This document shows, piece after piece, positions 1,487-10,221 of a DNA stretch of 10,339 nt. The position numbers were made by a program, and so were the translations under genes. Source of the stretch: JBFLXN01 sp040755715 [NCBI: Candidatus Edwardsbacteria bacterium] (GTDB taxonomy: Bacteria; Edwardsbacteria; AC1; JBFLXN01). The notes under the pieces are model-generated. The model saw only the letters and a program-made list of their open reading frames with translations. It was not told where the DNA came from and did not search any database. Within the stretch, counting starts at the first letter, position 1. Every line of letters starts with the position of its first letter. The DNA is taken from positions 1 to 10,339 of the forward strand of contig JBFLXN010000097.1 of assembly GCA_040755715.1 (NCBI GenBank), in the 5' to 3' direction.

Positions 1487-2398
1487 TCACACAGTTATCT
1501 CCTTAATGGCCAATTTTGTTAAATCTATTTCGCCTACACCTAACTCGGAGGCTAAACGAATATGCTCAATTTCTTCTCCTCTTTTGCCAAAGAATGTTGC
1601 CGCATAAGAATCAACAGAAACGGGATTAGTTCCTACTACGATTGTCTTTAATTCTTTAACCTTACCCGGGCCTTGCGGTCCATTTGTCAGAAGAATTCTG
1701 GTAGCGTCCAAAATAATCAGATTTGGCTTGATGGCCGTAGAAAAGTCAGCAATAGATTGAGACAATCCTAAGATATGAAAACTATTCATTGACCAGTTTA
1801 TACCCATGAGATTCTTTAAGGAAAGGGTCAGTTCCGTGCTGGCGTGAGTTTTAGCAATGGGCATATTGATAAAGACATCAGCGTCTAAGACACTGTTTAG
1901 AACCAGGGATGATTTCATTAGTTTACCTTTAGGAATCTCTATCTTTTGATAATCTCTTTTCTTGTTTCCGGGAAAAACTTTTGCTCCGGCTTTTTCAGCC
2001 GCTTCTTTTAGGCCGTTTCTTTGGAAGGCGATTTCTGGATTGTCACAGGTGTGGTCCCAGATTTCTACGCTTCTGGCACCGGCATTGAGGCAGATTCTGA
2101 CCATTGCCGCTAGGAGTTCCGGGTTTGTAGTAGCGGCCTGTTCTGGTCTTCTCGCCCAAGCGGCATTGGGTTTGATTACTACCCGGCTATCCTTTTTCAC
2201 AAATTTTTCTATTCCTCCAAAGGATGAAATGGCGGACCTTAAAGTCTGCTCCGGAGAGTCGCCTCTGGCCACGAGAAGGTCTATTCTCTCCTGGGGGATA
2301 AGAAACTTCTGGGAAACATCACTGAATAAGCTCTTACTGCTAACCAGAACTCCGATACCTAAGACTTGCTGTAGAAATTCTCGCCGGGAAATTCTCAT
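1487..2398 (-). CDS. Tat-exported DUF362 family protein
   Basis: A 303-residue protein of the DUF362 family, whose biochemical role is unsettled. The N-terminus has a twin-arginine signal, SRREFL at residues 4-9, followed by a hydrophobic stretch (11-21), indicating export of a folded protein. Family-like segments follow: VVIKPNAAW (73-81), EIWDHTCDNPE (112-122), DVFINMPIAKTHASTELTLS (174-193), KNLMGIN (195-201) and TIVVGTNPVSVDSYAATF (252-269). There is no C-terminal ferredoxin module and no cluster of cysteines, unlike DUF362 proteins fused to 4Fe-4S domains. The frame stays open to an ATG at 2449, but I chose 2398 because it places the Tat motif correctly and because a promoter lies within the upstream extension, giving an apparently leaderless start. 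It stops with TGA. Confidence 0.85.
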   Translation of the reverse strand: MRISRREFLQQVLGIGVLVSSKSLFSDVSQKFLIPQERIDLLVARGDSPEQTLRSAISSFGGIEKFVKKDSRVVIKPNAAWARRPEQAATTNPELLAAMVRICLNAGARSVEIWDHTCDNPEIAFQRNGLKEAAEKAGAKVFPGNKKRDYQKIEIPKGKLMKSSLVLNSVLDADVFINMPIAKTHASTELTLSLKNLMGINWSMNSFHILGLSQSIADFSTAIKPNLIILDATRILLTNGPQGPGKVKELKTIVVGTNPVSVDSYAATFFGKRGEEIEHIRLASELGVGEIDLTKLAIKEITV

Positions 2399-2405
2399 CA
2401 ATAAT

Positions 2406-2434
2406 AGTATAACAAAAATTGGCTGTAGAAGCAA
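2406..2434 (-). promoter_or_regulatory. Promoter giving a leaderless DUF362 mRNA
   Basis: On the minus strand, TTGCTT (2429-2434, a weak -35) and TATACT (2406-2411, a good -10) are 17 bases apart. Only 7 bases separate the -10 from the ATG at 2398, so transcription would begin at or one base before the start codon. No Shine-Dalgarno sequence precedes the ATG, which fits leaderless translation. Confidence 0.55.
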
Positions 2435-2468
2435 TAAAAAATAGAGCATTACAAAAGAGCCAATAAAA

Positions 2469-2508
2469 ATTGCCCTCTGAAATTAAGAAATTATTTTCAA
2501 AGGGCAAT
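2469..2508 (-). terminator. Intrinsic terminator after the barrel protein gene
   Basis: ATTGCCCTCTGAAA (2469-2482) pairs with TTTCAAAGGGCAAT (2495-2508) at 13 of 14 positions around a 12-base loop. On the minus strand the stem is followed at once by TTTTTATTGG, a usable T-run. It lies 36 bases past the stop of the barrel gene and separates that unit from the DUF362 gene, which has its own promoter. Confidence 0.8.
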
Positions 2509-2513
2509 CTTGT

Positions 2514-2529
2514 TGCAAAAAGTTTTGCA
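2514..2529. repeat. Short perfect palindrome before the terminator
   Basis: TGCAAAA (2514-2520) and TTTTGCA (2523-2529) form a perfect dyad with a 2-base spacer. It lies between the stop codon of the barrel gene and the terminator at 2469-2508. It may add a second 3'-end hairpin; no protein site is recognised. Confidence 0.5.
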
Positions 2530-2544
2530 GTGCTGGCAGGGGCA

Positions 2545-3594
2545 CTACTTCAAAAGGTCAAAGGCTAAGATACCGACTAAGGAGAAATAGTTGTTGTAAT
2601 ATTTCCACCCTTTCTCATTCCAGTAGGGAAGGTAGTGGTTAAAACCTGCTTCCACACCAAGATGAATTGGCGTTTTAGGAATCTGATATTCTATATTAGC
2701 CACGGGTTTAAGGGCTAAGAAGAGGTGGGGATATTTTTTAGTAGCCATTTTTGAGAATAGACATCCGCTTCCCAAACCAAGTGTCGTTGCGAAATTGTAC
2801 GCCTTGAAAATTATGTAACCTATCTTCATGCCAACAAGTGTCTCTGTAATCTGTCCCTCATCTACTATATCCACCACATACAGGTTTTCTTTCAGAGGAC
2901 TGTAGAAGTGGTAGTCCAGAAAAAAGCCCAAGAGTTTTCTTGTGGAAAGTTGATACTCGTATCTCACTCCGCTTTGGGGAGAGGGTTCTCCTTTATTAGG
3001 GAAATAGACCGGTCCAAAATGAACGCCAACTACCCGATACCCCACCGAGATTTTTTTTCTTTCCTCCGTCTGTTTCAAGAGTTCAAGAGATAGAGCCCCC
3101 ACCGCGGAGAAATTGTCAGTCGGCTGTGTATATTTAAAAGAATGAGTATATCGGGCTTCTAAGGTGAGGTAAATATTTGTCTGAGGTAGATAGTATTCAA
3201 AACCGAGAACTGGTCTTACGGTGAAAAAGCCCTTATCTTTTGGCAGACGGTGGTTGTTGTTCCAATAGTAATAATGTTCACTATAATCAGAAATTAAGGT
3301 GCCTGCATCAGCGCCGATTCTCGTAGTGAGATTATAAGTCTTCCACCGATAGGCTGCTCTTGCTGTAATGAGATGTTCCACAAAGTCGCTGGACACATCA
3401 TGGCAGTCATAGATTATGCCGATTAGTCCTTTTTCTCCGAGAGGAAGTTCCAGTCTAATTCCAAACAGGCTGCATTTGCTGGGAGGAAATCTCTCGCCGG
3501 CGTGGACTCCTAAAAGAGGGGAGTTAGCGTAAGATTTATTAAAAGCGAAGAAAAGAATCGCCACCACCACGAAGAAATTATAGTATCGCAACAT
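2545..3594 (-). CDS. Secreted, internally duplicated beta-barrel-like protein
   Basis: A 349-residue protein with a Sec signal peptide (hydrophobic 7-18, likely cleavage after SYA at 21-23). The rest alternates short aromatic and hydrophobic strands with polar turns, as in outer-membrane barrels. It is built of two related halves, roughly 27-174 and 183-349. KTYNLTTRIGADAGTLIS (85-102) aligns with KAYNFATTLGLGSGCLFS (264-281); RPVLGFEYYLP (127-137) aligns with KPVANIEYQIP (296-306); ALSLELLK (167-174) aligns with ILAFDLLK at the C-terminus. The final Lys means it lacks the usual C-terminal aromatic signal of many outer-membrane proteins, so location is inferred. GGAG within GGAGAG upstream gives a good ribosome-binding site. 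It lies 77 bases downstream of the lipoprotein gene and is probably co-transcribed with it. No specific family is recognised. Confidence 0.75.
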   Translation of the reverse strand: MLRYYNFFVVVAILFFAFNKSYANSPLLGVHAGERFPPSKCSLFGIRLELPLGEKGLIGIIYDCHDVSSDFVEHLITARAAYRWKTYNLTTRIGADAGTLISDYSEHYYYWNNNHRLPKDKGFFTVRPVLGFEYYLPQTNIYLTLEARYTHSFKYTQPTDNFSAVGALSLELLKQTEERKKISVGYRVVGVHFGPVYFPNKGEPSPQSGVRYEYQLSTRKLLGFFLDYHFYSPLKENLYVVDIVDEGQITETLVGMKIGYIIFKAYNFATTLGLGSGCLFSKMATKKYPHLFLALKPVANIEYQIPKTPIHLGVEAGFNHYLPYWNEKGWKYYNNYFSLVGILAFDLLK

Positions 3595-3615
3595 TTCTTC
3601 TCTCCTTTTTTATTT

Positions 3616-3650
3616 TGGAGTGGCTTATCCCGCAATTGTAAGCCACTCCA
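3616..3650. other. Strong hairpin between lipoprotein and barrel genes
   Basis: TGGAGTGGCTT (3616-3626) and AAGCCACTCCA (3640-3650) form a perfect 11-base stem with a 13-base loop. In the direction of transcription (minus) it is followed by an A-rich, not T-rich, stretch and then by the ribosome-binding site of the barrel gene, so it is not a standard intrinsic terminator. It could be an RNA-processing or stability element that sets the relative levels of the two proteins. Confidence 0.65.
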
Positions 3651-3671
3651 CTGATAATCCAGCTTCTGATT

Positions 3672-5036
3672 CTAAAACCACGGAACAAAAACATAGATTT
3701 GAGCACCACCAGTAGTGCCTTTCCATCCGGAATAGGGTAGAGGAGGGAAAGGAATATCTTCTATCTGGTCATCACTATCTCCAAACCAGCCGCTGTCTCT
3801 CTCCCTAATTTTAATACTACATAAATAATAGTAAGCTGTGAAAATAGATTCGGAATATATTTGTTGCCCTGGCCACGCAAAGTCATATTCTACCTGTTCA
3901 TCATCTACTCCGGGGAAATCAGTATCGGTCTGGGGATTTACAACTCTAGTATAAATCTCTGGGGTACTTTTCCACCACGGTTCACAGTCATTGTACAAGA
4001 TAAATTTTTGTACATAAATGACATAATAAGCAGGGGGACCACCGCCTCCTCCTCCACCACCCCCTCCACCTCCTCCGTCTCCATTAGGCACATAATCAAT
4101 TTGGGTCATGCATATTACTATTACAGGAAAAGATGGTGGAGAAGAAGAAGTGAGTGGGATTTGGTTACCGCTGGCATCATAGCCGTATATTATCGGAATC
4201 TGAGCGTCATCACCAGCAAGAGCGTATGTTACTATGGGTGGGGTTTCATCTAACGGAACACACCCATGCGGAAGAAAAAGCCGAAGTGCATACTCTGGAT
4301 ACTTAGCAATAATACTTTCGGTTTCCAGAATCTTCACTTGCACTACCGGATCAGGAATTGGCAAAGGCTTAACCACGCTTAGAAACGATGAAAGATTGAC
4401 TACGCCCGGCGTGGAAGAACTAGCGAACAAGTCTCTGAGGGTGGGAGCTATGGCTGCGGGAGACGCATGGTAAGCAACAACTCTTCCAAGATTTGAAGCC
4501 AAAGTTTTAAGGTCAGTATTAGCTGCCTCCGAGCTGACTGGGAAAGGTGTTCCAGGGGACCACCACTCACTCGCTACTGAAACAATAATGAAACTCTTTG
4601 GGGCACCACGCAGCCTAACTCTGATTTCATTCTGATCTACTGGCAATTGTACCTGTTTCTCGACCACAGCAACTTGTTGGTTGAATTCATTTTCCTTGAC
4701 GATTTCGTGGTCATTAAGGAAAATGCTTGCTGCAGAGACTCTATTTTCGCCTAAAGAATCGCCATTTTGAACCCTAAAGGTACAAGAAGCTCCAGTCCAT
4801 CCCCAAAAGGTAGCGGTATAAACATTAGGAGTACCAGTAGTTCTAAAGTAGATTCTTGGACCGAAAAGACACACAGTCTGTTCCGAGGGATTTGAAGGGG
4901 AAAGCCTCGTAGTGGCGCCGTTCTGAGGAAGGGCTTCTTCTTTATTGACACTCGTTGGCTGTTTTTTCCCGCAACCGATTAGCAGTAGCATTGTCGCACT
5001 CAATGCTACAAGTAGTGTTAGAGAACCTCTTTTCAT
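3672..5036 (-). CDS. Lipoprotein with N-terminal beta-sandwich and 13-glycine linker
   Basis: A 454-residue lipoprotein. The lipobox LIGC ends at Cys22 and is followed by GKKQ, so it should be lipid-anchored in the envelope. Residues 55-155 (C-LFGPRIYFRTTGTPNVYT to APKSFIIVSV) resemble a beta-sandwich motif I recall at the N-terminus of many secreted bacterial proteins, where an IFLNDHEIV-like strand precedes NEIRVRLRG. Residues 245-312 form a middle region with PIIYGYDASGNQI (281-293). A run of 13 glycines (321-333) then links to a C-terminal domain with YNDCEPWWKSTPEIY (348-362) and IKIRERDSGWFGDSDD (408-423), an acidic pattern suggestive of metal-binding beta-sandwiches and loosely of DUF3103. 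The C-terminal assignment is weak. The start is set by AAGGAG (5045-5050), 8 bases upstream. It is the first main gene of a unit with the barrel protein. Confidence 0.82.
   Translation of the reverse strand: MKRGSLTLLVALSATMLLLIGCGKKQPTSVNKEEALPQNGATTRLSPSNPSEQTVCLFGPRIYFRTTGTPNVYTATFWGWTGASCTFRVQNGDSLGENRVSAASIFLNDHEIVKENEFNQQVAVVEKQVQLPVDQNEIRVRLRGAPKSFIIVSVASEWWSPGTPFPVSSEAANTDLKTLASNLGRVVAYHASPAAIAPTLRDLFASSSTPGVVNLSSFLSVVKPLPIPDPVVQVKILETESIIAKYPEYALRLFLPHGCVPLDETPPIVTYALAGDDAQIPIIYGYDASGNQIPLTSSSPPSFPVIVICMTQIDYVPNGDGGGGGGGGGGGGGPPAYYVIYVQKFILYNDCEPWWKSTPEIYTRVVNPQTDTDFPGVDDEQVEYDFAWPGQQIYSESIFTAYYYLCSIKIRERDSGWFGDSDDQIEDIPFPPLPYSGWKGTTGGAQIYVFVPWF
4038..4076 (-). repeat. GGN-codon run encoding 13 glycines
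   Basis: Thirteen consecutive GGN codons encode the linker of the lipoprotein. Codon third positions are mixed, so it is an imperfect microsatellite and less prone to slippage than a pure repeat. Gain or loss of triplets would only change linker length. Confidence 0.95.
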
Positions 5037-5609: not shown

Positions 5610-5671
5610 CAAATCTGTGGTTTGAAGGGGAAAAAAGGGAGGTCCACCTACGCAAGTGGGGAAGGATGTTA

Positions 5672-5695
5672 GCCAGAGGCTCATCTGCCTCCGGC
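5672..5695. repeat. Short GC-rich palindrome in the TPR leader
   Basis: GCCAGAGGC (5672-5680) pairs with GCCTCCGGC (5687-5695) at 8 of 9 positions around TCATCT. It resembles GCC-AGAGGC palindromes common as dispersed repeats. It matters for start choice: the upstream ATG at 5666 would translate this element into the protein. Confidence 0.6.
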
Positions 5696-5725
5696 GGAAA
5701 AGAAGAGGCAAGAAAGTGGTGCGAA

Positions 5726-6775
5726 ATGCTTACTAGACAATTTGACAGGATTGTATGCCTTGTTTGTTTTGTTTTCCCTTTGTTGAGCGTAAATCTGTTG
5801 GCCAACGAAGAAGAGATTGATTCGCTCATCTACAGAGGAATTGAGCTTACTCTGCAAGAGAATTATAATGAGGCGATGGGAGTCTTTGCCAAGATTATCC
5901 AGAGCGATGCGGAATCTCCAGTGGGATATTTCCTCCAAGCCACGGTGCTTCAGATAAAAATGCTTGACTTTGAGAGCAACAATTACGAAAGAGAATTCTA
6001 TAAACTGCTTGACACCACTATAGCTAAAACGGAAAGGTCTTTAACAAAGAATCCAGACGATGCCTGGGTTTATTTCTACCTCGGCGCTTCCTATGGCTAC
6101 AAGGCAGCTTACGAGGGGAAAAATCAGAAATATTTTTCTGCGCTTCATCACGGCTTAAAAGCAATTTCTAAATTGAAGAAAGCCCTAAAATGTGACCCTA
6201 ATCTTTACGATGCCTACTTGGGTCTTGGCACTTATCACTATTTTCGCACCAAGGCGACGAAGTTCATCAGTTGGCTTCCCTTTATTGGAGATACCAGAGA
6301 ACAGGGGATTGCCGAAATTCGTCTGGCAATGGAGAAAGGAAAGTATTCAAAGACTCTAGCGAAGAATGGTCTGGTCTGGATTTTTATTGAAGAGAAGAGA
6401 TATGAAGAAGCGCTTTCATTGGCTCAGGAATTACTGAGAGAATATTCCGAGAGTCGGACCTTCCATTGGGCACCGGCTGAGATTTATTATCACCGAAAGG
6501 AATGGGAAAAAGCTAACGATATGTTTCATCAACTTTTGAGGCTCATTGAGCAGTCAAATCTACCGAATAATTATAATCTTGTAGTAGTGAAATATCGTCT
6601 GGCTCAAACCTATTTTTATCAAAAGAAATTCGGCGAGTGTATTAGAGAATGCAAGGAGATTTTACAGCTTCCTTTAGATGAGAGGTCTAAGAGTAGATTA
6701 GAAGATATTATTTCGGAGATAGAGGAATTGTTGAAGAGGGCCAAAAGCAAACAGAAAAGCCAGAAGAAAGAGTAG
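5726..6775 (+). CDS. Secreted tetratricopeptide repeat protein
   Basis: A 349-residue protein with an N-terminal Sec signal (hydrophobic 9-25, likely cleavage after LLA at 24-26), then helical TPR-type repeats. Candidate repeats include SLIYRGIELTLQENYNEAMG (33-52), the DAWVYFYLGASYGYKA region (112-127), GLKAISKLKKALKCDPNLYD (143-162), NGLVWIFIEEKRYEEAL (214-230) and VKYRLAQTYFYQKKFGECIR (288-307). The YDAYLGLGTYHYF and PFIGDTREQGIAEI blocks (161-198) recall a TPR group related to the Iml2 family. The tail (330-349) is highly charged and lysine-rich. Such proteins are protein-binding scaffolds in the periplasm or at a membrane. I chose 5726 over the in-frame ATG at 5666 because the extra 20 residues derive from a palindromic repeat and would bury the signal peptide; no strong ribosome-binding site supports either. 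Its stop is 8 bases before the next gene. Confidence 0.8.
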   Translation: MLTRQFDRIVCLVCFVFPLLSVNLLANEEEIDSLIYRGIELTLQENYNEAMGVFAKIIQSDAESPVGYFLQATVLQIKMLDFESNNYEREFYKLLDTTIAKTERSLTKNPDDAWVYFYLGASYGYKAAYEGKNQKYFSALHHGLKAISKLKKALKCDPNLYDAYLGLGTYHYFRTKATKFISWLPFIGDTREQGIAEIRLAMEKGKYSKTLAKNGLVWIFIEEKRYEEALSLAQELLREYSESRTFHWAPAEIYYHRKEWEKANDMFHQLLRLIEQSNLPNNYNLVVVKYRLAQTYFYQKKFGECIRECKEILQLPLDERSKSRLEDIISEIEELLKRAKSKQKSQKKE

Positions 6776-6783
6776 AGGATTCT

Positions 6784-7152
6784 ATGAAAAGAAGCTCTGG
6801 ACAAAAAACCAGGGATAGTTCAGAAAACCAGAAATGGACACATCCTGGTGGTAAACTCGTGGAACTTGGAGCTGATAAACTTACAGATGCAGAATTGCTT
6901 TCTATTTTTATTGGTTCAGGAATCAAAGGAAAATCGGCGGAAAAAATAGCAGAAGAAATCCTCGCAAAGTTCAGTTCATTCAAGGGAATGGCCAATCAGC
7001 CTCTTGAGAAATTCTTAGAAATCAAAGGACTTGGCGATGTAAAAGTCATCAGAATTGCCGCTGCTCTGGAATTCGCAAAAAGGTGTGTTGATATCATTAT
7101 TGAAGACTTAAAGAAAGACCGAGAATTGCGAAAGGAAGTTTTGGGAGATTAA
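6784..7152 (+). CDS. Stand-alone RadC N-terminal (UPF0758-N) helix-hairpin-helix protein
   Basis: A 122-residue protein matching only the first half of RadC. PGGKLVELGADKLTDAELLS (21-40) and IFIGSGIKGKSAEKIAEEIL (41-60) follow the RadC N-terminal pattern, and FLEIKGLGDVKVIRIAAALE (77-96) is a helix-hairpin-helix likely to contact DNA. Full-length RadC is about 225 residues and ends in a JAB/MPN metalloprotease-like domain with an HxHxSD-type motif; none is present, and the next frame starts a different gene, so this is a genuine half-protein or an old truncation that is still open. AGAGGA overlapping the TPR stop gives the ribosome-binding site. The restriction enzyme gene starts 6 bases after its stop, so the two are almost certainly co-translated; it may assist or regulate that enzyme, but this is inference. 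Confidence 0.82.
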   Translation: MKRSSGQKTRDSSENQKWTHPGGKLVELGADKLTDAELLSIFIGSGIKGKSAEKIAEEILAKFSSFKGMANQPLEKFLEIKGLGDVKVIRIAAALEFAKRCVDIIIEDLKKDRELRKEVLGD

Positions 7153-7158
7153 GCAAGC

Positions 7159-10119
7159 ATGAGTAGAATAAAAGGTAGGTCTACCAAAGGCCCCAGCCCT
7201 TTTGATATGAGAGCACATAAGACGGAGAGGACCGCTGTCGCTATTTTAATGCACTGGATGAGGGAGATTATTGAAAGAAAAGACCTTGAGCTTGGTTTGC
7301 CAGATATTGAGACTACTGGTGATGATAGGAAGATGCCGGATACGGTTATATACGAATCCCGCCGAAGTCAGAAAATCCTCTGTGTTATTGAAGCAAAATC
7401 TTCGTATTACGATGTCTTTAACTATCAAGAGTTAAAAAAACCTGCCTGGGAAAAAGCCAATCAGAGAAAGGCAAAATATTTCGCCACTACCAACTTCAAA
7501 AGGCTCATCTGGTTCAATACTGAAAAAGTAAATGCTCAGAGACTAGAAGAAGAACAAATAATTGAAAAATACTTTCTCTCAGCAATAGAAAATCTGGATG
7601 ATATTGAACAGACAAGATACAGTGAACCTATAAAGAAAGGGCTTGAAGATTTTCTTACCAAACTCTATGCCGTTCATTCCGGCAGAGAGCCTGAGCCAAA
7701 ACAGGCAATAGATGAGTTTTTAGTTTTCAGACTTCAGGAGAAGATAAGGGTTCTCTCTACTTATTATAGAAGGATTATTGATGACCAATACCACAAAGAC
7801 AAATCTTTTGCTTTGAAACTAACAAAGTGGTTTGTAGACCAGGGCTGGAGTTTTGCCTGGCAGCCTCAGGATTTTGATAAAGCCGCAAGGCAGACCGCCT
7901 ATCTTCTTGTCAACAAGATTCTCTTTTATTATGGACTTCAGGCAAAAAGACCAAATGAACTTGTTCCTCTTGAAATACCCGAAGGTTTGCTGAGAGGTGC
8001 ACAACTTCAGAAATTTCTCCAGAGCTATTTTGATGAAGTCTTAAGAATTGACTATGAAACAATCTATACCACAGACTTCATAGATGTCATTGCGTTTCCT
8101 GAAGCAAAAGAGGTGGTAAAAGAGATAAAAGAGCTTGTCAATGTCCTCAAAAGATACGACTTTTCTAAACTTGGTTACGATGTGATAGGCAGAATCTTTG
8201 AGCGACTGATTCCTCAAGATGAACGACATAATCTGGGTCAGTATTTTACGAGTCCTGATGTGGTAGATTTAATCCTTAGGTTTTGCTTGTATCATGAAGA
8301 TAACAAAATACTTGACCCTTCCTGTGGGGCAGGAACTTTCCTGGTGAGAGCCTATCAGCACAAGAAGCTTATGAATCAAAGGCTGGAGCACGAGAAGGTT
8401 CTGGATACCCTCTGGGGAAATGATATTGCTAAATTTCCAGCTACTCTTTCCACCATAAATTTAGCCATCAATGACCTGGCGGTAGATAAAAACTATCCGA
8501 ATATTATCCAGGAGGATTTCTTTGCCATTATGTCACACCCTGAAGGGGGTTTTGAACTGCCAGAGAAATGGAGAAAAGTGAGGGCAAAAACACTTGGGGT
8601 TTTGGAGAGGGAGGTTACTTTTCCGAGATGGTTTGATGCGGTTGTTGGCAATCCACCTTACACAAGACAGGAAGAGATTCCTGAGATTGGAGTGGATAAG
8701 GAAAAACTAATTGAGAGAGCACTTAAAGACTCCTCGAGCAAAAAGATGGCCGAAATCGGAAAAAGGGCAGGAATTCATGCCTACTTCTTTGTTCATGGCA
8801 CAAAGTTCTTAAAAGATGGCGGATACTTCGGCTTTATCGTCTCCAACTCTTGGCTTGATGTAGACTATGGTAAAGGGCTTCAAGAGTTTTTCCTGAAGAA
8901 TTACAAAATAGTTGCCATCATTGAATCAAAAGTGGAGCGTTGGTTTGAAGAGGCGGACATCAATACCTGCATCGTGGTTCTTCAAAAATGTAGGGGCGAT
9001 TCACGAATCGCCCAAAAAGAACGAGACGAAAACCTCGTTCGCTTTGTGTGCCTCAAAAAATCCCTGCGTCACTTTATCCCGCCAGCCCAGGATATGTGGG
9101 AGAAGCAGGTTGAAAGATTAAATGCCATTGACAAGCTCAAAAAGACTATCCTTGCCCACAACAACCTTTATGAAACAGATGAATATAGAATCTTCCCGAA
9201 AAGCCAGAAAGAACTATGGGATGAAGGATTTGACCTAGAAGAGGAGAAATATATCGGAGCGAAGTGGGGCAAATATCTGAGAGCACCTGAAATTTTCTTC
9301 AAGTTCTTCAAGATTTTGGAAAAGGGTAAAGGGAAACTTGTGCCGCTGAAGGAGGTGGCAGAGGTTAGGCGTGGGTTTACAACTGGTGCCAATGAGTTCT
9401 TTTATCTTACTGAAGAGGAAATAAAACAAAGGAAAATTGAAGAAGAATATCTACAACCTATAATCTTTTCACTTAAGGAGGTTAAAGGATATAAATTGAA
9501 CAAAAATACTTTGACGAGTAAAGTGATTATATGCCACAAAACCGAAAAAGAATTAAAAGATACAAATTTGTTGAAATATATAAAATTGGGAGAAGAACAG
9601 GGCTACCACGAAAGACCCACCTGCTCTTCCCGTAAACCTGAACCGTGGTACAGTCTTGGAAAAGGCTGGAGATACGCACCTTTAATTTTTCCTTCTAAAG
9701 TTGGAGAAAGAATGCCTGTATTTTTGAATAAAGGCGTTTTTGAAGATAAGAAACTATACGGGGTCACCCCTAAAAAATCAATAAATAAACTGGCTTTGGC
9801 AGCATTATTGAATTCCACAATATCAAGACTTTTTATTGAATTTACCTGTAGGCAATTAACAGGTTCTCAAGCAATTGCAGATATAGATGTTGCAGTTGTA
9901 GAGGAACTACCAATCATTGCTATTAATAAAATCTCAAAAAGAATAGAAACAAAGCTTATAGATAAATTCAAGGCTCTCGCTAAAACCTCTGCCTTATCTA
10001 TTTTCAGGGAAATTGCTTCTTCACCTGATGAAGTTTCTCTTGATAAAGTTAAACCGGAACGCAGGGAACTTGACAAAATCATCATGGGCGAAATTTTAGG
10101 ACTGACAGATGAAGAGTAA
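7159..10119 (+). CDS. Type IIG single-chain restriction endonuclease / N6-adenine methyltransferase, probably cut short by a nonsense stop
   Basis: A 986-residue chain that should both cut DNA and methylate adenine within its target. Near the N-terminus MPD (59-61) and VIEAK (76-80) form a PD-(D/E)xK nuclease site, with E24 as a further candidate acid. A helical connector (about 180-350) leads to the gamma-type N6 methyltransferase: GQYFTSPDVVDLIL (360-373), SAM motif I ILDPSCGAGTFL (384-395) and catalytic NPPY (498-501). From about 700, RAPEIFFKFFKIL, KEVAEVRRGFTTGANEFF (731-748) and LAALLNSTI (880-888) mark the target-recognition region. No helicase or separate specificity subunit is nearby, supporting type IIG. 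Residues 611-620 lie over a palindromic element. After the TAA (10117-10119) the frame continues with family-like sequence for 33 codons, so the ancestral enzyme was about 1,020 residues. GGGAG (7143-7147) is the likely ribosome-binding site. Confidence 0.9.
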   Translation: MSRIKGRSTKGPSPFDMRAHKTERTAVAILMHWMREIIERKDLELGLPDIETTGDDRKMPDTVIYESRRSQKILCVIEAKSSYYDVFNYQELKKPAWEKANQRKAKYFATTNFKRLIWFNTEKVNAQRLEEEQIIEKYFLSAIENLDDIEQTRYSEPIKKGLEDFLTKLYAVHSGREPEPKQAIDEFLVFRLQEKIRVLSTYYRRIIDDQYHKDKSFALKLTKWFVDQGWSFAWQPQDFDKAARQTAYLLVNKILFYYGLQAKRPNELVPLEIPEGLLRGAQLQKFLQSYFDEVLRIDYETIYTTDFIDVIAFPEAKEVVKEIKELVNVLKRYDFSKLGYDVIGRIFERLIPQDERHNLGQYFTSPDVVDLILRFCLYHEDNKILDPSCGAGTFLVRAYQHKKLMNQRLEHEKVLDTLWGNDIAKFPATLSTINLAINDLAVDKNYPNIIQEDFFAIMSHPEGGFELPEKWRKVRAKTLGVLEREVTFPRWFDAVVGNPPYTRQEEIPEIGVDKEKLIERALKDSSSKKMAEIGKRAGIHAYFFVHGTKFLKDGGYFGFIVSNSWLDVDYGKGLQEFFLKNYKIVAIIESKVERWFEEADINTCIVVLQKCRGDSRIAQKERDENLVRFVCLKKSLRHFIPPAQDMWEKQVERLNAIDKLKKTILAHNNLYETDEYRIFPKSQKELWDEGFDLEEEKYIGAKWGKYLRAPEIFFKFFKILEKGKGKLVPLKEVAEVRRGFTTGANEFFYLTEEEIKQRKIEEEYLQPIIFSLKEVKGYKLNKNTLTSKVIICHKTEKELKDTNLLKYIKLGEEQGYHERPTCSSRKPEPWYSLGKGWRYAPLIFPSKVGERMPVFLNKGVFEDKKLYGVTPKKSINKLALAALLNSTISRLFIEFTCRQLTGSQAIADIDVAVVEELPIIAINKISKRIETKLIDKFKALAKTSALSIFREIASSPDEVSLDKVKPERRELDKIIMGEILGLTDEE
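8994..9040. repeat. Palindromic element inside the restriction enzyme gene
   Basis: GGGCGATTC (8994-9002) and GAATCGCCC (9005-9013) form a perfect 9-base stem with a 2-base loop. A second perfect 7-base stem, GAACGAG/CTCGTTC (9019-9025 with 9034-9040), follows. The first stem and flanks encode RGDSRIAQK (612-620), just before ERDENLVRFV, which reads like normal family sequence. GTAGGGGCGATTC palindromes are, as I recall, widespread dispersed repeats in cyanobacteria and uncultured phyla. The frame is kept. Confidence 0.7.
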
Positions 10120-10221
10120 CTTGAGGTTTATCGGGCGGTGGTGGATTTGGTGAAATCAAGAATTGAGAAAGCTAAAAGCGTGGGGAAAAATAAAAAAACA
10201 GTTGGTGGGGTTGATATATAG
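10120..10221 (+). pseudogene. Detached C-terminal tail of the restriction enzyme
   Basis: Immediately after the TAA, the same frame stays open for 33 codons to TAG (10219-10221). It reads LEVYRAVVDLVKSRIEKA and continues with a lysine-rich end. Together with the preceding EILGLTDEE it looks like the usual amphipathic helical C-terminus of this enzyme family. A CAA (Gln) to TAA change would be the simplest cause. It has no plausible start of its own. Sequencing error and stop readthrough are alternatives. Confidence 0.7.

Follow-up and report, generated by a model that had tools for sequence, protein, structure and literature searches.

A short RadC N-terminal protein encoded in front of type IIG and other restriction-modification enzymes

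Why should half of a RadC protein be encoded immediately in front of a restriction-modification (RM) enzyme? The question is raised by a 10,339-nucleotide stretch of a Candidatus Edwardsbacteria genome (contig JBFLXN010000097.1; "the window" is this whole stretch). On its forward strand, a gene for a 122-residue protein with the N-terminal domain of RadC (radC-N, 6784..7152) is followed, after 6 nucleotides (7153-7158), by a gene for a type IIG restriction-methylation enzyme (7159..10119). A sequence-only reading of the window had picked out this pair, taken the small protein for a DNA-binding accessory, modulator or control protein, and proposed a two-gene variant of type IIG systems. The open reading frames and coordinates that it gave are exact, and Pfam agrees that the small protein contains only the N-terminal part of RadC. 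We think it probable, but well short of certain, that the product of the small gene is an accessory dedicated to RM systems, namely a DNA-binding protein that acts together with the methyltransferase part of its partner.

We begin with the small protein. Pfam's UPF0758_N (PF20582), which is helix-hairpin-helix-like, matches residues 20-89 (E = 4.6e-18; 65.5 bits, with a cut-off of 27.1), and there is no Pfam match to the JAB domain (PF04002) in the 122 residues. NCBIfam's RadC models match at model positions 3-82 and 3-88 alone, with scores far under their cut-offs (71.2 of 180 bits and 57.8 of 133.85 bits). We took RadC proteins of related loci and compared their JAB regions to the window with tblastn; the best hit had E = 0.26. 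Judged by its sequence, the window's small protein is a derived half of the RadC family and not RadC itself. Just upstream of radC-N, on the same strand, is a gene for a 369-residue tetratricopeptide repeat protein (5666-6775), which stops 8 nucleotides short of radC-N; the two genes may belong to one operon.

The partner, at 986 amino acids as written, has its restriction endonuclease (REase) and methyltransferase, with their catalytic motifs, in one polypeptide, arranged as REase, helical linker, methyltransferase, and variable specificity region. Pfam finds Eco57I (E = 6.9e-22) and N6_Mtase (E = 4.6e-20), and PADLOC finds REase_MTase_IIG (E = 2.5e-51). In an alignment of 30 enzymes of the window's class, the nuclease core D61...E78-x-K80 (7333..7398), which we take to be of the PD-(D/E)XK type, is invariant, and methyltransferase motif I (LDPSCGAGTF, 8311..8340) and the NPPY of motif IV (NPPYTRQ, 8650..8670) are conserved. 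For a full-length homolog (L058), rather than the window's protein, the fold model (mean predicted local distance difference test score, or pLDDT, of 74) has BpuSI (3s1s) as its top match in the PDB, with E = 2.7e-18. By these matches, the 986-residue product is a type IIG enzyme, and both cleavage and methylation are predicted. The sequence-only reading had also called it a single-chain restriction-methylation enzyme, and it was right.

That reading overlooked the significance of where the enzyme stops. The TAA at 10117..10119 replaces a glutamine that is nearly invariant in the aligned relatives, which read GLTDEEQLEVYRAVVDLVKSRIEKAKS around this position. In-frame homology persists past the TAA, up to a TAG at 10219-10221. 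Compared to typical homologs of about 1160 amino acids, about 170 amino acids are missing, and the C-terminal region of most relatives has left no trace in the window (the best tblastn hit, with E = 0.66, lies elsewhere in it). In four other loci with enzymes of the same class (L001, L008, L042, and L054), the C-terminal region is a separate open reading frame directly behind the enzyme gene; the one in L042 has no match in Pfam. Truncation, ongoing decay, or a sequence error could each explain the state of the window's enzyme; our case for the pair is built on the family as a whole rather than on this one copy. Within the enzyme's coding region there are also two adjoining inverted repeats (8994-9040), at a short insertion that is absent from the aligned relatives.

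How often does the pair recur? With the small protein as our sole query against a genome collection, we retained the 80 best of 113 relatives. Every one of the 80 is a short open frame of 44-157 amino acids as read, and in 72 of them the length is 95-125 amino acids. An RM enzyme is encoded downstream on the same strand in 61 of the 80 loci. In 59 loci this is a type IIG enzyme, which we sorted into class 1 (similar to the window's; 47 loci), class 2 (about 1080 amino acids; 10 loci), and class 3 (about 1340 amino acids; 2 loci). Class 2 resembles class 1 only around the methyltransferase core. The two genes are directly adjacent in 44 of these 59 loci, where the extrapolated gap ranges from -32 to +31 nucleotides, and they are probably co-expressed. 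Other kinds of partners lie further downstream of radC-N in L046, which has a type ISP-like single-chain enzyme, and in L045, which has an N6_N4 methyltransferase and then a DpnII-like REase. The pairing recurs across many bacterial phyla. As for the proposed two-gene variant of type IIG systems, the conserved pairing is as expected, but the proposal is too narrow: the partners belong to several distinct type IIG classes and also include the type ISP-like enzyme and the two-gene type II system.

We also counted from the enzyme side, using a class 1 enzyme as the query against genomes that were drawn regardless of the small gene. These were the genomes around G010, which has a Chloroflexi locus (L021; 151 genomes of the phylum and 294 of the class), and around G014, which has a Nitrospirae locus (L033; 295 genomes of the phylum). 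We considered homologs to be close if their best piece was at least 53% identical and divergent if it was 46% identical or less. Among the close homologs, 12 of 13 genomes have a short radC-N upstream (ten by fetched loci and two by positions). Among the divergent homologs, none of 19 has it in the 1.0-3.1 kb of upstream sequence that could be seen. (We fetched 21 of the 28 genomes with divergent homologs; the seven left out include G621, with a 46% piece, and two of the loci, L105 and L116, have no upstream DNA.) For class 2, we examined 40 of the 51 listed places, three of which (L230, L245, and L251) have no upstream DNA. Here radC-N is upstream of all eight homologs that have upstream DNA and at least 47% identity, and of none of the 29 with about 24-37% identity; these 29 were seen with 0.9-3.2 kb of upstream sequence, and a gene displaced further by an insertion could be missed. 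Therefore, radC-N marks the close homologs within two separate classes of type IIG enzymes. The enzyme-side surveys scored the top few candidates per genome, so that further copies may be missed, and they overlap with the small-protein survey, as many of the close homologs in both classes are the same loci.

One explanation that the sequence-only reading had itself raised is that the small gene is simply a decayed radC, that is, a broken or frameshifted chromosomal gene that lies beside an RM gene by chance. These genomes do contain frameshifted RadC genes. Three short frames (in L218, in L221, and one of the two in L219) are of the canonical type with a JAB frame alongside, and we rejected them as members of the family. 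(An HsdM-type gene is found near the frameshifted RadC in L221.) As a general account, however, decay is not tenable, and we give it almost no credence. Besides being short in 80 of 80 cases, the family is under purifying selection: the median ratio of nonsynonymous to synonymous substitutions (dN/dS) is 0.076 across 67 pairs, which are not independent, and the maximum is 0.263. Also, 29 of the 30 host genomes encode a RadC JAB domain at another place. Finally, in a phylogenetic tree that took in 35 of the 81 short proteins, these 35, along with two RadC-N domains from L112 (described below), are set off by a branch with support of 100/97 from 16 canonical RadC domains encoded in the same genomes, as well as from RadC domains that are fused to methyltransferases. 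Within this branch, the 35 short members form one side of a weakly supported branch (65/78). Neither the profile nor the trees include L060, which has an internal stop, or L077 and L079, which have short frames; rows with X letters were also kept out of the profile.

Nor, for enzymes of classes 1-3, does the pairing appear to be a tendency of any radC gene to cluster with RM genes. Among the regions around full-length radC in the same genomes, 15 of 16 lack type IIG enzymes of classes 1-3, and the exception (L210) also contains the short gene. This control covered enzymes of classes 1-3 only, and some of the regions are cut by contig ends.

The short family has features of its own, which we identified by aligning 53 of the 81 short proteins. 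The UPF0758_N domain of canonical RadC aligns along its whole length with the short protein, but where canonical RadC reads ERPREKL, the short family has HPGGKLRE. This is part of a signature, WxHPGGK, at residues 18-24 (6835..6855). His20, Gly22, and Gly23 are invariant in the short family and are found in none of the 16 canonical RadC domains that we compared. Trp18 is also invariant, but canonical RadC often has a tryptophan nearby, so Trp18 is not diagnostic. A second signature, FKGMANQP, is at residues 66-73 (6979..7002). Its Gln72 and Pro73 are invariant; Gln72 is present in 0 of the 16 canonical domains and Pro73 in 6% of the 16. Between the two signatures is the turn GIKGKSA (residues 46-52; 6919..6939), with Gly46 and Ala52 invariant, which may be the first hairpin of a helix-hairpin-helix (HhH). 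A second turn, KGLGDVK (residues 81-87; 7024..7044), in which Gly82 and Lys87 are invariant, is a candidate for an HhH hairpin that binds the DNA backbone.

Other comparisons bear on whether the small protein has the HhH fold. There is a sub-threshold match to Pfam's HHH_5 at residues 54-95, and in a profile search the HhH part of topoisomerase V matches with E = 1.2e-5. The AlphaFold2 model is almost entirely helical, with a mean pLDDT of 88. Its similarity to known folds is low (the best Foldseek hit has E = 0.4, and VIA Z scores are at most 6.2). The VIA matches include the HhH domains of MutY, XPF/ERCC1, NusA, UvrC, and Hef, and SAM domains score equally high. As evidence for an HhH domain, the match to topoisomerase V and the relationship to RadC in Pfam are better support than the fold comparison.

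The small proteins seem to have exchanged partners. We labeled the small-protein tree with the three type IIG classes and "none" (19 rows, some of which are merely contig ends). The labels require 18 changes, compared to 28.1 in shuffles, and the class 1 label by itself requires 17. The well-supported branches alone force at least four changes for class 1 and at least four for class 2. That the protein is kept while the enzyme and the cargo change would fit a generic DNA-related function better than the reading of a specific sequence.

The same exchange might suggest that radC-N is just a landing site or hitchhiker: a leader that has no functional contact with the RM and toxin-antitoxin genes that replace one another behind it. 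The many label changes are what this predicts, and so is the variety of the cargo, which comprises several classes of RM enzymes and several types of toxin-antitoxin systems. Genes of the toxin-antitoxin type, or genes for small nuclease-like proteins, are found right behind radC-N, and mostly between it and the type IIG gene, in L006, L013, L014, L019, L022, L024, L027, L028, L031, L035, L043, L050, L053, L046, L052, and L082 (the last judged by eye). However, it is the protein that has been kept here, not the DNA: four-fold degenerate third positions are near random (identity of 0.306, compared to 0.261 expected), whereas the protein is under purifying selection. We rejected a conserved DNA site for this reason. 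Also, a hitchhiker should not track the close homologs of two type IIG classes and be absent from the divergent ones, and it should not be joined to methyltransferases in other loci, as RadC domains are. We consider this explanation highly improbable.

These fusions came from searching the host genomes for UPF0758_N. In L109 (2302-3462, minus strand) and L110 (1702-2853, minus strand), a RadC N-terminal domain is fused to an N6_N4 methyltransferase, and the nuclease is a separate gene: the next gene on the same strand is of the REase type. The two downstream proteins are 54% identical to each other and both match PADLOC's type II REase model PDLC03572. In L111 (1751-3568, minus strand), a whole RadC, with its JAB domain, is fused to a D12 methyltransferase, and this is followed on the same strand by another D12 methyltransferase and then an AlwI-like REase. 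In L112, two RadC-N domains are encoded in one frame (2229-2780, plus strand) that abuts or overlaps a methyltransferase gene (2767-5001, plus strand). A nucleotidyltransferase/HepT pair is found one gene further upstream in L112. The RadC domains of L109-L111 group among canonical RadC and away from the short family (this grouping should be viewed with caution, as the branches are long), which suggests that RadC was united with methyltransferases a second time, independently.

Is the small protein instead a regulator of the RM gene behind it, like the C (controller) proteins of other RM systems? Like a C gene, it is a small gene right upstream of an RM gene, which it might regulate at the level of transcription or translation; C genes are often placed like this, and the short leader abuts or overlaps the RM gene in the 44 adjacent type IIG loci. 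But up to E = 0.1, no helix-turn-helix family is among the small protein's Pfam matches. Furthermore, the task of a C protein is to time restriction and modification apart, which is impossible with a single-chain enzyme. A regulator would also not be expected to stay conserved while the class of its partner changes, or to have relatives that are fused in frame to methyltransferases. The fusions favor a methyltransferase-associated role over a control protein, and we consider regulation of this kind to be very unlikely.

A different possibility is that the RadC-N domain recognizes the cell's own DNA where it is branched, gapped, or replicating, and holds back the partner's nuclease at such places, sparing newly replicated or damaged host DNA. 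It would then protect against suicide and not enhance the enzyme's activity. Enzymes that combine a REase and a methyltransferase must avoid cutting the DNA of their own cell, and the fold matches include repair proteins of the HhH type. RadC has been linked to DNA repair as well, with some dispute, in passages of PMC5512222 and PMC11981726. However, the fusions in L109 and L110 are to the methyltransferase, with the REase encoded separately, and so indicate a link with methylation and not with the nuclease; the divergent type IIG enzymes also do without the small protein. We think that a safety factor of this sort is unlikely.

Under our preferred explanation, a dedicated RM accessory, the N-terminal HhH domain of RadC would have been split off from JAB and retained as a separate gene at the front of the RM gene, which it adjoins or overlaps. 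The small protein would bind DNA via its hairpins, without sequence specificity, and would dock on the partner's methyltransferase part, possibly with the HPGGK and ANQP segments, which distinguish the short family, facing the partner. The small protein might then hold the enzyme on DNA or load it there, or it might do so on a particular form of DNA, such as hemimethylated or branched DNA. Either way, this could aid methylation, cleavage, or the choice between them.

Several observations weigh against this explanation. First, in 15 of the 59 type IIG loci, the two genes are separated by 445-1482 nucleotides, with intervening genes that are mostly of the toxin-antitoxin type where we could identify them. 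They include ParE-like toxins, PBECR2-like and PHD-like proteins, DUF4258, PIN, a nucleotidyltransferase with HEPN, and DUF3800 (representatives were searched and the others were assigned by cluster, except for L036). Second, the thirteenth close homolog of the class 1 enzyme (L082) has a long open type IIG frame and only a remnant of radC-N, truncated at its 5' end, with an apparent HicAB pair behind it. Third, because divergent relatives in both type IIG classes lack the gene, radC-N is not needed for catalysis as such. Fourth, the distances between small proteins and between their type IIG partners are only modestly correlated (Mantel r = 0.38 for 26 pairs; 4 of 2000 permutations were as high), although if partners have been exchanged, then a modest correlation is expected. 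Fifth, structural comparison gives weak support to the HhH fold, given the low scores and the equally good SAM domains.

Lastly, not every short radC-N has an RM enzyme behind it. Of the 19 loci without one, 8 reach the end of the contig within 1.5 kb, and the other 11 of the 80 have more than 1.5 kb of downstream sequence with no recognized RM enzyme. In seven loci without an RM enzyme (L020, L056, L057, L060, L068, L069, and L072), housekeeping genes adjoin; the copies that we searched encode a PALP-family enzyme, a cysteinyl-tRNA synthetase, and a formyl transferase. These seven are from genome bins that are labeled as Desulfobacterales, Desulfobacteraceae, Deltaproteobacteria, or Pseudomonadota, and the internal stop mentioned above for L060 is in its radC-N. 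Other such loci are L079, with its short frame; L038, with only 1.6 kb; L030, with a PIN-like gene and others; and L052, which has HicAB and, further on, a gene for a ResIII-type helicase.

How does the pair compare to known systems? Like BpuSI and the enzymes that PADLOC annotates as REase_MTase_IIG, the partner is a single chain with an N-terminal PD-(D/E)XK-type nuclease, an N6A-type methyltransferase, and a variable specificity region; unlike them, it has a separate conserved RadC-N protein encoded in front. RadC-type modules are also found in other settings of genome conflict or DNA processing. Passages in PMC5512222 describe RadC JAB domains in polyvalent proteins, with a disputed role in repair; those in PMC12458937 describe RadC/ArdB modules of mobile elements; and those in PMC11981726 describe a RadC-like DinG, which concerns a JAB-type domain. 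In these passages, the systems involve the JAB domain or the radC genes of mobile elements, whereas here the N-terminal half occurs alone as the leader gene of an RM system. In PMC8620254, radC appears in a figure legend. The term "helix-hairpin-helix" is absent from PMC12707154, and the word RadC is absent from PMC1779556. In searches of a library of open-licence papers, we recognized no description of a short RadC-N protein paired with RM enzymes.

If the small protein is an RM accessory, then type IIG and other RM systems would have a component that is not flagged by PADLOC's library of defense systems; up to E = 0.1, the small protein has no match in PADLOC. More broadly, what the widespread RadC protein does is a matter of dispute (passages in PMC5512222 and PMC11981726). 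A JAB-less half of RadC that is tied to several kinds of RM systems, together with the fusions to methyltransferases, offers a concrete place to test the role of the N-terminal domain. We speculate, quite tentatively and with the odds against it, that this domain is a general partner module for methyltransferases: as a free short protein it serves several types of RM systems, and elsewhere it, or the whole of RadC, is fused to methyltransferases. RadC itself might then act on methylated or restricted DNA and not in general repair, which would explain both why its repair phenotype is doubtful and why it is found on mobile elements.

We also looked at mobile elements directly. Scanning viral contigs with the two proteins of the window gave nothing of use, and when they were scanned with a fused protein, none of the 80 loci that were kept contained RadC-N by profile. 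Phage proteins match the small protein at 33-37% among the matches listed, and most of its matches on plasmids are annotated as radC. One contig from a viral collection (L121) does contain the pair: radC-N and a class 2 type IIG enzyme are encoded at 5977-9535.

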